Origin: Endomicrobium sp.
GTDB lineage: Bacteria; Elusimicrobiota; Endomicrobiia; Endomicrobiales; Endomicrobiaceae
Assembly: GCA_031264425.1 (NCBI GenBank)
Contig: JAISDY010000046.1
Location: 1-16,237 of the forward strand
DNA: 16,237 bases
Reading direction: 5' to 3'
In this document: positions 5,471 through 16,011 of the stretch, one piece after another
How the letters are laid out: every line of letters begins with the position of its first letter
Numbering within the stretch: position 1 is the stretch's first letter
Translations under genes and position numbers: made by a program
The notes under the pieces: generated by a model
The model's database searches: none
Told to the model about the DNA's origin: nothing
What the model saw: only the letters and a program-made list of their open reading frames with translations

Positions 5471-5644
5471 ATGTTTTTAAATTTGATAATAAATGCCATA
5501 ATATTTTCTATTTTTTATACGTTGATATTCTTGTTAATTTACAAAACAAAACTGCTTAAAATAAAATTTGCGCCCATATTCTTTTTTTCGGCAATTATGT
5601 ACTTTCTTATAGCTTTTCTTCTTAAAAAGTATATCAATCTATGA
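5471..5644 (+). CDS. Small hydrophobic membrane protein, unknown function
   Basis: A 57-residue frame starts at the ATG at 5471 behind a clear ribosome-binding sequence (GAGAGGG about six bases upstream). Its TGA overlaps the next start as ATGA (5641-5644). The protein has two hydrophobic stretches, about residues 3-24 and 33-51, separated by a short basic loop (YKTKLLKIK), and a basic C-terminus (KKYINL). This looks like a two-helix inner-membrane hairpin with a positively charged cytoplasmic loop. I do not recognise a family. The good ribosome-binding site, the exact start-stop overlap with the glycosylase gene and the lack of any other content in this gap support it as a real gene. No function can be assigned. 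Confidence 0.6.
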   Translation: MFLNLIINAIIFSIFYTLIFLLIYKTKLLKIKFAPIFFFSAIMYFLIAFLLKKYINL

Positions 5645-6417
5645 AAATAGATTCTTCAAAAAATATTAAAGACTTACTTTTAAAAGATTTAAAAAAGTAT
5701 GGTGAGCCCGTTTTTGCCAAGTTTACCCGAAAACTTTTAAATATTTGCGAAGGCAGGTACGCCCAAGACGATCTTCTTCTCGGAGTACGCGTGCCTAAAC
5801 AAAGAGAATTGGCAGGGAAATATTCTGAATGTATAAGTTTGGAAGAAACTGAAAAGTTATTACAAGATAAAGTCCATGAGCTTAGATTTATTGCATTAGC
5901 TATTTTATCCAAAGAATATAAAAGAGCTGATAATAAACTTAAATCCAAAATAATGAAAATATATTTAAGAAATTATAAGTATATTAACAACTGGGACTTA
6001 GTTGACACATCTGCACCGCACATATCCGGGCATTACTGGTATAACAATAAATTAGACAAATTCTGGAAATTTGCCAAATCTGGTAATTTATGGAAGGAAA
6101 GAATAGCAATGCTTTCAACATTTTACTTTATCAGACAAAATAGATTTAACGAGACTTTAAAACTTGCTGAAGTGTTTTTAAATCATAAGCACGACTTAAT
6201 GCACAAAGCCTCAGGCTGGATGCTTAGGGAAATCGGTAAAAGAGATAAAAAAGTTTTACTTTCATTTTTAGATAAATATTCCTCACTAATGCCCAAAACG
6301 ATGCTCAGATATTCTATTGAAAAATTACCCAAGCAACAAAGGAAGTTTTACTTAAAAAAAGTTCTCATTTTGCTTGTCCTGCTGTGCGGGAACTTAGTTT
6401 CCATTTGCAGTGTCTAG
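5641..6417 (+). CDS. AlkD-type DNA alkylation repair glycosylase
   Basis: The protein matches the AlkD family of HEAT-repeat DNA glycosylases, which excise N3- and N7-alkylated purines. The functional positions known from AlkD are recognisable: NWDLVD with W118 and D122 (tryptophan and the catalytic aspartate), R154 in LWKERIAML, and W193 in GWMLREIGKRD. The closing family motif MPKTMLRYSIEKLP is at 217-230. Family members normally end near KFYLKK (about residue 240). Here 18 more residues, almost all hydrophobic, follow a run of seven A at about 6354-6360. The extension is not family-like and may come from a frameshift or a lost stop at that run. The start overlaps the preceding small membrane gene (ATGA), so the two are probably co-translated. 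With uvrA upstream this makes a small repair cluster. Confidence 0.85.
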   Translation: MKIDSSKNIKDLLLKDLKKYGEPVFAKFTRKLLNICEGRYAQDDLLLGVRVPKQRELAGKYSECISLEETEKLLQDKVHELRFIALAILSKEYKRADNKLKSKIMKIYLRNYKYINNWDLVDTSAPHISGHYWYNNKLDKFWKFAKSGNLWKERIAMLSTFYFIRQNRFNETLKLAEVFLNHKHDLMHKASGWMLREIGKRDKKVLLSFLDKYSSLMPKTMLRYSIEKLPKQQRKFYLKKVLILLVLLCGNLVSICSV

Positions 6418-6534
6418 AGGTCAACTTTTTATTCAAAGCGAGGATTAGTTTATGTCAACGGAAAGATTAGCAAAGTGGAGCAAAGAATCTAAAGAGTTTT
6501 TTAAAAAGCAAAAGATAATAGCGTAATTTTAGAT

Positions 6535-7560
6535 TTGGTTATATCTTTTGGGTGCGCAAGCCAAACGGGCGAAGGATTTGAAGAATTAGTAAATACAATC
6601 AACAGTGAAGAAATTAAGAGAAAAGTAAAAAAGGTTGTTATAACAGACACATCGTACTTATACAGACATGACATCTCTGAATTTGCAAAGTATGCAGACC
6701 CAACTATTCCAACCATATGGTATCTAGTTAATAAAAAATGGATTGAAAAATTGATGGTGCCAATAGAATTAAAGTCATGGGCAAATGAAGTAAAGACAGA
6801 TGCATTTAAAAAGTGGTTTGACAAAATACTAGTTGATTACAAAGATCAAGCAAACTTTAGAGATGCTGTGAATATTGAAGCTGCATATTTTTCAAAAGAA
6901 TGTGGCATAGGAAATTTTAAGAATTGTAGGGATTTTTTGTTAGAAGAAACAGCTCATGCTTTGGCATTTCTCGATCGCAGAGTTGTTGTATATCCTATGG
7001 ACATTGCAGATTCCATAAATCATGCAATGAACTTTTATGAGAAAAAATACACACATATAAAGTATAAACTTTCTTATGCAACACAAAAAAAGAAACGTTA
7101 TGACAGTCACTACTATGATGAAATTGATAAAAGAGTATCTGATTTTATGAGTGGTAACATTAGAGGTCTTAATTTTTATGTGGTAAATAGAGATGGTGAA
7201 TATGTTTACCAAAATAGGTACTTCGGTAAAATTGTAGGGAAAAATAATAATAAGGACATAGACCCTAAATCTTGGGAAGTATCAAAAAGAGTTATGGATA
7301 GTGAGACCTCAGAGGTTCTTGAAGAGGAATTTCAGAATATATATTACACGTCTTTTAAATCGCCCTTAATAATAAACAATAAAGTAGAAGGAGTAATAGG
7401 GTTGGCGATAGACATAACGGATAGGAAAAAGAGGGAAGAATTAGAGAACAAGTTAAAGATGAGGGAAGGGTTGTATAAGGTAGCCAAAGAAGTGTCGCAC
7501 GACATAGCGTCCCCCGTTACAGCGCTGAAAATAATAGAAGAAGTTATAAAGGGAAACTGA
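6535..7560 (+). pseudogene. CDPS-PAS-HisKA fragment of the broken fusion gene
   Basis: This is the longest intact piece of the broken fusion gene. It holds nearly all of the synthase domain, the PAS domain and the phospho-acceptor histidine region. The apparent TTG start at 6535 is an internal leucine codon without a ribosome-binding site. Reading back in the same frame continues the family-like sequence AKDNSVILDLV to about 6508, where it joins the ATG-initiated frame across the A run. The frame ends at a TGA (7558-7560) just after the HisKA helix begins. A one-base change at the preceding GGG lets it continue as GKLTEQDERMLNTAIRS in the next fragment. If translated alone it would lack the ATP-binding domain. 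Confidence 0.75.
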
Positions 7561-7577
7561 CAGAACAAGATGAAAGA

Positions 7578-8164
7578 ATGCTAAATACGGCAATAAGAAG
7601 CATAGAAGAAATGACAAGGAAGATGTTGGATAAGTATAGGATAGAGAGGAGAAGGGAAGAAGGGAGAGAAGAGGAAGCGTGGAAGAAGAAAGAGGAGCAA
7701 GAGATATTGGTGAAAGAGACGGTGGGAGATATAGTAGAAAACATGAGGTATAGGAGTAAAGGGAAGGATGTGGAAATAGTGTATGATGAAAAAGAAGGAG
7801 AGGAGACGGAAGACTAAAAGGAGATAAGACAGACTTTAGAAGGATGATGATAAATCTAATAAAGAATGGAATAGAAGGGAAGAAAGGAGAGATAAAGGTT
7901 GCAACTAGGGTGGAAGAAGAGTATGTAGAGATAAGAGTGAAGGATAATGGGAAAGGAATGAGTAGAGAGATGGTAGAGAAGCTAGAAAGAGGGGAAGAGG
8001 TAGGAACAACGAAGAAAGAAGGGAATGGGATAGGGATGCAGCAGATAAGAGGAGTGATAAAAGAAATGAGAGGGAAGATAAAGATAGAGTCAAGAGAAGG
8101 AGAAGGGACGGAGTTTATCCTAACATTCCCAAAGGCTGAGAACCCAAGTACGATAAAGAGTTAA
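7578..8164 (+). pseudogene. Histidine kinase dimerisation and ATPase fragments
   Basis: Two pieces in different frames (to the TAA at 7815-7817, and from about 7802 to the TAA at 8162-8164) complete the kinase. The first carries the second HisKA helix (MLNTAIRSIEEMTRKMLD) and a highly charged linker. The second has the ATPase landmarks: D-x3-RRMMINLIKNGIEG (N-box), VKDNGKGMS (G1), GTTKKEGNGIGMQQI (G2) and a closing TEFILTFP strand. The break lies between 7790 and 7814. The coding strand here is about 80-85% purine in sampled 60-base rows and has almost no C, unlike the synthase half. All domain landmarks are in order and only the frame is broken, so decay is recent or the indels are sequencing errors. 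Confidence 0.8.
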
Positions 8165-8214
8165 AGTTTAAATATTTTGATAAATAGTTAAGAAAGATTA
8201 TTTGAATATTTCTA

Positions 8215-8661
8215 TTACTTATTTTCTAATGCTTTTTTTACGGCAGCTGAAATACGTTTTCCATCAGCAGCTCCGTTTACTGCCGCTACGGCGGCTTTCA
8301 TAACTACGCCAAAACTCTTATCTTCGGATGTATCTGCAACAGCCTTAATTTTATTGAATAATTCCTCATCGGACATCTCTGCCGGCAAATATTGTTCTAT
8401 AACTTTTACTTCGTTTTGCTCTTTTTCAACAAGATCTTGTCTTCCGCCTTTTTCAAAACTTTCTATAGACTCTTTACGTTTTTTTATTTCGCTTCGCAAC
8501 ACCTTTAACACTTCTTCGTCGGTTATCTTGATGTTTTTCATATCGCGCATATTTATTTCGTTAAGAATGCTTCTTACAACATTTAACTTATTCATATCCT
8601 GCGCTTTCATGTAAGCTGTCAAATCTGACTTTAATCTTTTTATCATTTCCGTTTCTATCAT
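8215..8661 (-). CDS. yqeY: YqeY/GatB-like domain protein
   Basis: The 148 residues match the YqeY family, small cytoplasmic proteins related to the C-terminal tRNA-binding domain of the GatB subunit of the tRNA-dependent amidotransferase. The precise role of free-standing members is not established. Family features seen are the N-terminal helix MIKRLKSDLTAYMKAQDMNKLNVVRSIL, the central EIKKRKESIESFEKGGRQDLVEKE, the IEQYLPAEMSDEEL motif, and the C-terminal DKSFGVVMKAA...GAADGKRISAAVKKAL. The start at 8661 is supported by GGAG at 8667-8670, five bases upstream on this strand; an internal ATG five codons in is less well placed. It follows the DUF192 gene by 13 bases and is probably co-transcribed with it. 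It converges with the kinase pseudogene across a 50-base AT-rich gap. Confidence 0.9.
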   Translation of the reverse strand: MIETEMIKRLKSDLTAYMKAQDMNKLNVVRSILNEINMRDMKNIKITDEEVLKVLRSEIKKRKESIESFEKGGRQDLVEKEQNEVKVIEQYLPAEMSDEELFNKIKAVADTSEDKSFGVVMKAAVAAVNGAADGKRISAAVKKALENK

Positions 8662-8674
8662 ATTAGCTCCCGTG

Positions 8675-9193
8675 CTACAATATTAATATATTACCTTCTT
8701 TAATATTCAATTGTTTTGCTCTTCCCGCGCTTAATTCTATAACTGTGTCTATTTCCGTAGGCGGCGGATATGTTTTTAACCTTTCTTCCGAAACTCCCGG
8801 TTCTGGCTTTATATTTTCAGTAATGCCGACAATTACATTATTTTTCACCCATACGATATCTAATGAAAATTTCATACCTTTCATCCAAAAGGACACTTTT
8901 TGTGCTTTACCAAAGAAAAATATCATACCGTCAAAAGGTATTTTGTTTTTCCCAGAAAGACCTTTTATTATTGTATCGCGTTTTTTTGCAACAACCAATT
9001 TCAATATTTGACCGTTTATTTCTAAATTTATTGTTTCGCCATCAACATATTCATCTATATTTAGTTTGCTAACAAGCGCGCTAGGCAAAGAAACATAGCT
9101 ATTATATGTTTTAGCATAACAGTTTACGCCAAAAGGCGTTTGCGCTAAAATGGTAACAGCTAGAAACATAAAGATATATTTTTCTATTTTCAT
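8675..9193 (-). CDS. Exported DUF192 family protein
   Basis: A 172-residue protein with a lysine-containing N-terminus followed by a hydrophobic stretch (about 5-20) and a probable cleavage site near the CYA at 25-27, so it is likely secreted or periplasmic. The rest is a DUF192 domain: GLSGKNKIPFDGMIFFF, VSFWMKGMKFSLDIVWV, IVGITENIKPEP and a C-terminal VIELSAGRAKQLNIKEG strand. The family is small and beta-rich, and its biochemical role is unknown. The ATG at 9193 has no Shine-Dalgarno sequence, but a perfect TATAAT on this strand ends seven bases before it, so the mRNA may be leaderless. It is first in a two-gene unit with the yqeY-like gene. Confidence 0.85.
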   Translation of the reverse strand: MKIEKYIFMFLAVTILAQTPFGVNCYAKTYNSYVSLPSALVSKLNIDEYVDGETINLEINGQILKLVVAKKRDTIIKGLSGKNKIPFDGMIFFFGKAQKVSFWMKGMKFSLDIVWVKNNVIVGITENIKPEPGVSEERLKTYPPPTEIDTVIELSAGRAKQLNIKEGNILIL

Positions 9194-13063: not shown

Positions 13064-13206
13064 AACTTATTCTTGTGCTTAATAAGAAATACAATAAAAA
13101 TAAATTTCAACGTTGGGTTAGTTTTTTTGTATCCTTTTGCTAGTTTTTAGTTATAAATTGCAGCTGATAGTGAAGCCCTTCTACTACCATTGTGCGAGGT
13201 AACCTA

Positions 13207-13999
13207 ATGGAAGACAAAGCATTGACTGTTTTTGAGAATTTTAACATTCGCAGACATTATGACGAAGCAAAAGCCAAGTGGTATTTTTCTGTAGTTGATG
13301 TTGTTCATGCTTTGGCAGGATCTAAAAATCCTACAGACTATTTAAAAAAGCTTAGAAAGCGTGATGTAGAACTCAGAGGCTACATAGGGACAAATTGTCC
13401 CCATGTAGAAATGCTTGTCAATGGTAAAAAACGAAAAACGCTTGATGGTGATGTAAAAGACATGTTGCGTATAATTCAATCTATACCAAGTCCAAAAGCA
13501 GAGCCGATAAAGCGATGGCTTGCCAAAGTTGGTTATGAACGTATAGAAGAGGTATCGGATCCTGAGAAATCCATAAATAGAGCCAGAGAAAACTGGAAAA
13601 CACATGGAAGAAGCGATAAATGGATACAGCGTAGAATGATGGGGCAAGAATATGCGTTGAAGTTATTAGGAAGACCCAATCCATCAGGAATGGTCAGGTT
13701 TGAGTGTTAATGAGCATAAGAAATTAAAAGGATTAGAAACGCAAACCTTACGGGATCATATGAGCGAGGCAGAGCTTATATTTACCGCTCTGGCTGAACT
13801 TTCAACAAGACAAATAGCTGAAACTGAAAATGCCAAAGGTATTGATGAAAATAAAAAGGCAAGTACCAAAGGCGGACGTATTGCAAAGAAAGCTAGAGTG
13901 GAGCTTGAACTGGAAACAGGCAAATCAGTTGTCACAGGAAAGAATTTTTTAAAAGAAGATAATGCCAAAACTTTGAAGTTAAGGAATAAGAGAAAATGA
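13207..13999 (+). pseudogene. Decayed BRO/DinD-related antirepressor gene
   Basis: Two frames form one gene. The first (ATG 13207 after GAGGT, to 13710) starts with a BRO-N type domain: WYFSVVDVVHALAGS, NPTDYLKKLRKRD, IIQSIPSPKAEPIKRWLAKVGYERIEE. The second (to TGA 13999) has the matching C-terminal half: HQEWSGLSVNEHKKLKGL, LRDHMSEAELIFTALAE, GIDENKKASTKGG and ARVELELETGKSVVTGKNFL. Family members keep about 20 more residues between RRMMGQE and EYAL, so a short internal deletion probably occurred between two GQE-like sites. A +1 frameshift lies near 13643-13685. BRO-N proteins are known from phage antirepressors and damage-inducible genes. The gene lies between dnaK and dnaJ, and its stop overlaps the dnaJ ATG. 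Its repeat at 13643-13669 is shared with the hrcA-grpE spacer. Confidence 0.85.
13643..13669 (+). repeat. 27-base repeat, copy 2 (in the antirepressor pseudogene)
   Basis: Identical to 10507-10533 except for one base (A at 13661). It sits exactly at the deletion and frameshift point of the pseudogene and encodes QEYALKLL in the first frame. Its location at the break point could mean that recombination between repeat copies caused the damage, or that both are conserved pieces of the same gene family. Confidence 0.75.
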
Positions 14000-15459: not shown

Positions 15460-16011
15460 GTGAAGAAATTTGTTTTGGCAGTCGCATTGTGTTGTTCTTT
15501 TGTAGGCAGTCTTTTTGCTAAAAAAGTAACTATCTGGACGGGGTATGCCGGAGGAAAAGAAATAAAAAACGCATGGATTACAGGGGTGGACGCACTATTT
15601 TACGATGTAAATAAAAACATAACATTAGGTGTGAGGTTATTCTCTTTAGAAGCGGACAGGAAAGAATATGAAATAGGAACTGGTAAGTGTGGTTATGGCG
15701 CTGTCTTGCTTGGCGGCATGTATCATACTAAGATAAGCGAAAATTTTGAATTTGATACTAAGTTTTTTGTAGGGTCAGGACACTATTATCGTAAAGGGTC
15801 AGTTGAAGGACAAAAGGAAAAAGAGAGATATCTAACAGCTTTTCTTTATGATTGTGATTTATCAGTTGGAGCGAGATATAATTTCACAAGAAAGTTTGGA
15901 CTGGGGTTGTGCTTGGGGTATAGGCATTGTTTTGGTATAGATCATAAATCGGACGATAAATTTAATCTTTCAGGATTTCAAACTACGTTAAACTTCTGCA
16001 TTATGTATTAA
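15460..16011 (+). CDS. Small predicted outer-membrane beta-barrel protein
   Basis: 183 residues, starting at GTG 15460 behind AAAAGGAGA (about seven bases upstream). The first 20 residues form a signal peptide (KK, hydrophobic core, SLFA then KK), so the protein is exported. The mature part alternates hydrophobic and polar residues in glycine- and aromatic-rich strands (ITGVDALFYDV, ITLGVRLFSL, GAVLLGGMYHTKI, FEFDTKFFVGSGHYY, LSVGARYNFT, FGLGLCLGYRHCFGI) and ends with FQTTLNFCIMY, an amphipathic strand with a terminal aromatic residue. That pattern is typical of small eight-stranded outer-membrane barrels assembled by BamA. I do not recognise a specific family or role. It is a single-gene unit between two intrinsic terminators. 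Confidence 0.7.
   Translation: MKKFVLAVALCCSFVGSLFAKKVTIWTGYAGGKEIKNAWITGVDALFYDVNKNITLGVRLFSLEADRKEYEIGTGKCGYGAVLLGGMYHTKISENFEFDTKFFVGSGHYYRKGSVEGQKEKERYLTAFLYDCDLSVGARYNFTRKFGLGLCLGYRHCFGIDHKSDDKFNLSGFQTTLNFCIMY

Follow-up and report, generated by a model that had tools for sequence, protein, structure and literature searches.

The window analysed here, a stretch of 16,237 nucleotides from Endomicrobium sp. (contig JAISDY010000046.1), carries at 6452-8164 on the plus strand a member of a protein family in which a cyclodipeptide synthase (CDPS)-like domain of the XYP type is joined to a PAS-like sensor domain and to the HisKA and HATPase_c domains of a histidine kinase. The gene is split by frame changes, has no single open frame in this genome and is broken and probably decaying. 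The sensor kinase of which it is a copy would be soluble, as no membrane segment was recognised in it by eye. Its protein relatives, and an Endomicrobiellum cubanum locus that shares the downstream gene, place the window among the Endomicrobia. The fusion itself, which the initial annotation had read from the broken frames, recurs in unbroken relatives of 574-596 residues with the same architecture. We consider it slightly better than an even chance that in this family the PAS domain senses the cyclodipeptide produced by the CDPS of the same protein or of a neighbouring one, and that the kinase then signals. Most work on CDPSs has treated them as producers of secondary metabolites, the use of the product to its maker often being obscure, and a kinase built onto a CDPS would give a direct and testable read-out of that role.

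The broken gene and its domains

Three-frame translation resolves the gene into four plus-strand pieces (6452-6526, 6505-7560, 7554-7817 and 7811-8164) with three frame changes between them, the number of frameshifts initially annotated. The N-terminal piece (6452..6526, beginning MSTERLAKW), whose N-terminus is conserved in the unbroken relatives, runs into a stop, and the first frame change falls within 6505-6526. The frame opening at 6505 encodes the CDPS-like domain of 209 residues (6505..7131), assigned to the XYP type by homology, fold and residues; it includes the Ser of VISFGC, the F-x-x-E-E motif and the Tyr-Pro pair, and every landmark from which a CDPS had been proposed (VISFGC, GEGF, DT, FLLEE and YP) is found in it. 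The PAS/Cache-like sensor domain follows at 7135..7419, where all matches are below their cut-offs: dCache_1 (9.9e-7, 29 of 45 bits) and PAS_4 (0.01) in Pfam, and sensory_box (0.0032, 17.6 of 22.9 bits) in NCBIfam, whose other matches are generic kinase models. A dCache sensor was also considered as the identity of the N-terminal domain and was dropped because the sub-threshold dCache_1 match falls in the PAS part.

The start of HisKA (7441..7560), placed by three-frame translation and alignment to relatives, contains the H-box SHDIASP (7495-7515) with the phospho-acceptor His codon at 7498-7500, and the second frame change lies before the stop at 7558-7560 that ends the frame opened at 6505. 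The remainder of HisKA and the linker continue in another, stop-terminated frame (7554..7817; 71% identical to the relative P0060 and 62% to P0011), with the third change of frame falling between position 7790 or so and 7817, and the HATPase_c domain occupies 7811..8164 including the stop codon (80% identical to P0011; PF02518 6.5e-19 for 7844-8161). The two landmarks of a HisKA kinase, the H-box His and the HATPase_c domain, are present, in separate frames.

It is highly probable that the window copy is defunct and has no function in this genome, irrespective of what the family does. Besides its own three frame changes, its counterpart at the corresponding site of Candidatus Endomicrobiellum cubanum has three in-frame stops, a second copy in the window genome has 12 stops, and a third match is truncated by a contig end. 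Against this, the genome is a draft (909,775 bases in 145 contigs, 69% complete) whose A-rich runs may contain indels introduced by sequencing or assembly, and the separate pieces of the gene still carry the catalytic and kinase motifs. The second copy (L107, G000:C87, 2802-4343), heavily decayed, lies about 1.5 kb behind an open 321-residue response regulator-like gene, with one other gene intervening.

Homology and predicted fold of the CDPS-like domain

Searched alone against the PDB up to E 10, the window piece returned a single match, the CDPS 5mlp (0.0017), and a profile of 28 sequences that included it returned five at E<=0.01, all of them CDPSs. An AF2 model of the domain has a pLDDT of 91.3 and a pTM of 0.85; all 43 Foldseek matches of the domain at E<=0.001 were CDPSs, and in VIA-align alignments it was 19-23% identical to XYP structures. 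The domain is therefore predicted to have the CDPS (class I aaRS-like) fold, in agreement with the proposed identity, and by sequence it is homologous to the XYP enzymes. The Pfam model that had been suggested as a check, PF16715, gave no match to the window piece up to E 10. It likewise had none at E<=0.001 in the whole window genome or in the control genomes, nor did it match any XYP-type member scanned. This absence is weak evidence and not diagnostic, since a stretch of the crystallised 5mlp also fails to reach the threshold, scoring 16 of 27 bits (E 0.011); a stretch of 9i5m is above it (35.1 bits). An unrelated sensor domain resembling CDPSs by chance, which the missing Pfam matches might suggest, is very improbable, as it is already contradicted by fold, profile and single-sequence searches that all return CDPSs first.

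The closest known enzymes are the CDPSs of Rickettsiella grylli (5mlp) and Fluoribacter dumoffii (5ocd), both of which we take to belong to the XYP subfamily, and of Nocardia brasiliensis (9i5m/5mlq). The Nocardia enzyme carries the XYP label in the accessible text of PMC13062777. From these the window domain differs by Phe in place of Tyr178, by Tyr at the position of Gln69 in the Nocardia enzyme (Nbra-CDPS), by its fusion to a PAS-kinase and by having no tailoring gene recognised beside it. No stand-alone XYP relative of the fused domain appeared among the 120 matches listed out of 128 (8000 candidates scored), and no relative was confirmed in the viral contigs scanned with both CDPS families discussed here.

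Active-site residues

For a census in AlbC numbering, 211 segments were reduced to 97 distinct domains, each 185 residues long or longer, with positions set by profile alignments to CDPSs in the PDB. Their median pairwise identity is 45%. S37 is present in 92 domains, E182 and Y202 in 94 each and P203 in 96; position 178 is Phe in 94 and Tyr in one. The set S37, E182 and Y202 is complete in 86 of the 97, and one of the other 11 is merely gapped there. With 178 counted as Phe, the four catalytic positions all fall within the 28 of 211 columns in which at least 90 of the 97 domains have the same residue (chance 2.6e-4). The position of Nbra-CDPS Gln69 is Tyr in 92 of the 97, and an LxRH motif is common to the family, 5mlp and 9i5m.

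The window domain has S37, E182 and Y202, with C40 and P203. It thus shows the X40-P203 signature of the XYP subfamily and, with C and P, departs from the N40 and H203 of NYH enzymes; it also departs from the Tyr178 of the XYP subfamily, having Phe. According to the accessible part of PMC13062777, S37, Y178, E182 and Y202 are common to NYH and XYP CDPSs. In AlbC the Y178F change causes a substantial loss of activity, affecting the first step too, and Y202F lets the dipeptidyl enzyme accumulate (PMC5935735, accessible text). That the nucleophilic Ser and the Tyr of the cyclising step are retained suggests chemistry and not tRNA binding alone; given Phe178, we call the domain CDPS-like and XYP-homologous rather than a proven synthase.

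Distribution and phylogeny

In our sample of the phylum the fusion family was found in 17 of 198 genomes (the window genome included), all of a single genus, and many of these Endomicrobium copies have stops or are cut. Matches to PF16715 were found in 12 of the 198 genomes, some as fragments only; 11 of the 12 also carry the fusion. The intact homologues that the initial annotation had advised looking for do exist, and they are mostly unbroken in the order of a Holosporaceae genome (G200, which holds the locus L020): there 24 of 49 genomes carry it, and 33 of the 35 matches listed have no internal stop. PF16715 matches in the same order are limited to two of the 49 genomes, neither among the 24 with the fusion.

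The carriers include Holosporaceae bins from samples that also gave Endomicrobiellum bins (Roe453, Cd354 and Gx481), and an alphaproteobacterium from yak omasum. The termite-gut Holosporaceae presumably live in protists. The two phyla are intermixed in a tree of 34 CDPS domains, well supported branches forcing at least five changes of label, and a single clade of Endomicrobia is rejected (AU p 0.0003, 34 rows). The interleaving points to repeated transfer, with the reservation that same-sample bins may be contaminated and that binning errors and paralogues could contribute to the rejection of the clade.

Exchange of CDPS-PAS heads over kinase tails

The E. cubanum gene (L012) and its window counterpart are both followed by a yqeY-like gene, 95% identical between the two, and blastn aligns the two loci at window positions 6441-6721 (79% identical) and 7357-8888 (86%) with no alignment between. 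Third-position identity is 0.65 in the N-terminal part, 0.40 in the middle and 0.71 in the C-terminal part (55, 226 and 59 codons), the random expectation for the middle being 0.33; residue identities are 0.91, 0.31 and 0.78. Since third positions in the middle are far below those of the flanks, unlike what drift in a shared gene would produce, the middle has probably been replaced. The relative P0004 shares its CDPS-PAS head with the window gene, block identities lying at 0.88-1.0 over residues 145 to 275, while its HisKA stretch has no match to the window better than E 1.1 and its HATPase is 61% identical.

Among 48 full-length fusions, forming 1128 pairs, the tail is alike (>=0.6) and the middle is not (<0.45) in 16, and the converse holds in nine. 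Identities of the CDPS and PAS parts are correlated given the kinase (partial r 0.69), and those of PAS and kinase much less so given the CDPS (partial r 0.13); neither value was reached in any of 500 shuffles. These comparisons indicate that CDPS-PAS heads recombine over different kinase tails. The joint variation of CDPS and PAS need not reflect co-specificity: a plain alternative is that the conserved stretch behind the PAS domain is prone to recombination. In one pair, P0083 and P0085, the kinase parts are 95% identical and the CDPS and PAS parts only 33-39%, a pattern that reads as a recent exchange of head or tail.

A second CDPS type linked to PAS-kinases

The Pfam-positive CDPSs of Endomicrobium are of another type, with the motifs GISPFN, KYF..ELP and VYK (best PF16715 match 1.7e-50). 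They are NYH-like, with Asn40, Tyr202 and Lys at 203, and show the motif set S37/Y178/E182/Y202. An hhalign comparison of the XYP-type family with them gave no match (probability 0.25%, E 0.25, both profiles being shallow), and we therefore do not claim the two types as close kin. In six of the ten Endomicrobium loci fetched (L001-L006) a PAS-kinase frame comes directly after the CDPS gene, and the two are separated or overlap by about 4 to 38 bases, according to which start is taken; the remaining four have a PAS remnant (L008), decayed pieces (L009), a contig edge (L007) or a fragment (L010). In the Holosporaceae order, genes for a PQ-loop protein, a CDPS and a PAS-kinase are consecutive in L120. 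PF16715, PAS and HATPase matches lie in a single chain in L119 and in the database proteins P0131 (97% identical to L119), P0132 and P0133. The CDPS part of L119 matches solved CDPSs (6ez3, 2.1e-27); P0133 has, by eye, Cys at the position of Tyr202. A further NYH-like fusion fragment, P0134, passes at its C-terminus into an unrelated-looking tail and is perhaps an assembly chimera. In the same lineages, therefore, NYH-like relatives of AlbC and the other NYH-type enzymes are likewise linked to PAS-HisKA-HATPase proteins. Both CDPS types are thus coupled to kinases of one kind, as would be expected if the kinase reads the CDPS product.

The PQ-loop proteins have about 90 residues and match PF04193 at 1.8e-5 to 2.5e-8 in the five scanned. 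Calling such genes by a match to PF04193, or to a model built from those five, within 800 bases upstream, we found one before 6 of the 49 distinct fusion gene starts with at least 400 bases upstream (L014, L016, L034, L039, L041 and L091, in both phyla), and none before the other 43, the window's included. A PQ-loop gene is also found in L120 (7.6e-9) and beside the CDPS remnant of L010. L014:1085-5799 holds a tandem pair of CDPS-kinase fusion genes with the PQ-loop gene between them.

Possible function

The initial annotation had offered two mechanisms, a kinase that senses the cyclic dipeptide of its own domain or a CDPS fold turned into a sensor of charged tRNA; both stand, and the new evidence favours the former. 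In the unbroken relatives the synthase domain would convert two aminoacyl-tRNAs into a specific cyclodipeptide, and the adjoining PAS domain would bind this product, from the same protein or from neighbours, and so set autophosphorylation by HisKA/HATPase. The phosphate would pass to the receiver domains found at the kinase C-terminus of some relatives, or to a separate regulator, and the small PQ-loop protein beside some copies could move the product across the membrane. Product sensing is favoured because Pfam-positive CDPS genes directly precede PAS-kinases or are fused to them, because the PQ-loop protein recurs with both CDPS types, and because CDPS and PAS vary together while kinase tails are exchanged. 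Counting against it are the near-universal Phe178, in view of the impaired AlbC mutant, the 11 domains that do not show all three other residues, the Cys of P0133, the rarity of the PQ-loop gene, the plainer explanation of CDPS/PAS joint variation, the lack of an hhalign link between the CDPS types, and the fact that PAS ligands cannot be read from sequence.

Phe178 also keeps alive a less probable but serious alternative, that the XYP-type domain has lost cyclodipeptide synthesis and instead binds aminoacyl-tRNA, or carries an aminoacyl group stably on its Ser, and in this way informs the kinase of amino-acid or tRNA-charging status. The Tyr at the Gln69 position and the LxRH motif shared with 5mlp and 9i5m are consistent with it, as are the contacts described in the accessible text of PMC13062777, where A76 is stacked between Y172 and F149 of Nbra-CDPS and Q69 is hydrogen-bonded to Y172, so that binding could persist as catalysis weakens. 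Against a charged-tRNA sensor, the nucleophilic Ser and Tyr202, the cyclising residue, are conserved along with the Glu, and it leaves unexplained the separate Pfam-positive CDPS genes and the PQ-loop protein beside such kinases. It is rather improbable that the kinase part instead regulates the synthase, phosphorylation or a PAS ligand switching production of a compound that acts on the host or is exported: the architecture would be the same and the PQ-loop protein could be the exporter, but the separate CDPS and kinase genes of L001-L006 would require intermolecular contact, and the C-terminal receiver domains of some copies point to an ordinary output.

A wider picture can be drawn, which we offer tentatively and regard as doubtful: a self-sensing cyclodipeptide system with synthase and receptor kinase in one polypeptide, which would have arisen at least twice from different CDPS types, be shared by two phyla that inhabit the same guts, represented by Endomicrobia and Holosporaceae, which presumably both dwell in protists, and have diversified, pherotype-like, by swaps of CDPS-PAS heads over kinase tails. 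In the polymorphic ComQXP-type signal/receptor cassettes of Bacillus, a synthase-plus-sensor head varies as a unit between conserved flanks; the chemistry and the proteins are different, and here synthase-like domain and receptor share one polypeptide. If true, the self-sensing system would be an unusual case of signal synthase and receptor in a single chain, with heads swapped between tails and apparently between two gut-sharing phyla.

The versions of CDPS known in 2010 had no fusions to other domains, according to the accessible text of PMC2922099. That CDPSs normally stand alone, as the initial annotation assumed, is not always so: PMC5816076 describes CDPSs whose C-terminus is fused to a P450, a methyltransferase or an ABC-transporter domain, so that the CDPS is likewise N-terminal, and one isolated N-terminal CDPS domain was active, but the partners named there are tailoring or transport domains and not sensor kinases. 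PAS domains are among the commonest non-biosynthetic domains near CDPSs, and quorum sensing has been suggested for the products (PMC5767969, 2018); that neighbourhood resembles the one described here but is a statistic of neighbourhoods only, and in its accessible text we found no term for a fusion, Endomicrobium or Elusimicrobia. Our search of the open-access literature, bioRxiv excepted, found no CDPS–kinase fusion in print.

Other genes of the window

The gene lies among panC, nadB, uvrA, hrcA, grpE, dnaK, dnaJ and yqeY, neighbours which we take to be housekeeping-like. Two further neighbours have Pfam matches, one as a DNA-alkylation repair enzyme and the other as a Bro-N protein. No tailoring gene was recognised in the window by eye among the ORFs or in six Pfam scans, as had been noted initially. 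The search for a neighbouring response regulator that had been proposed recognised none beside the gene (ORFs of at least 80 residues, by eye); four REC matches occur elsewhere in the incomplete genome. The DNA-alkylation-repair gene (5641-6417, plus strand) has its last 29 or so residues beyond the Pfam match, possibly a frame-shifted tail. The Bro-N gene (13192-13710, plus strand; PF02498 3.5e-6) is followed by a short ORF (13700-13999), and the two, lying between the dnaK- and dnaJ-like genes, are perhaps a mobile-element or phage-type insertion. A small outer-membrane beta-barrel-like protein, with a Pfam match below the cut-off, is encoded at 15460-16011 on the plus strand.
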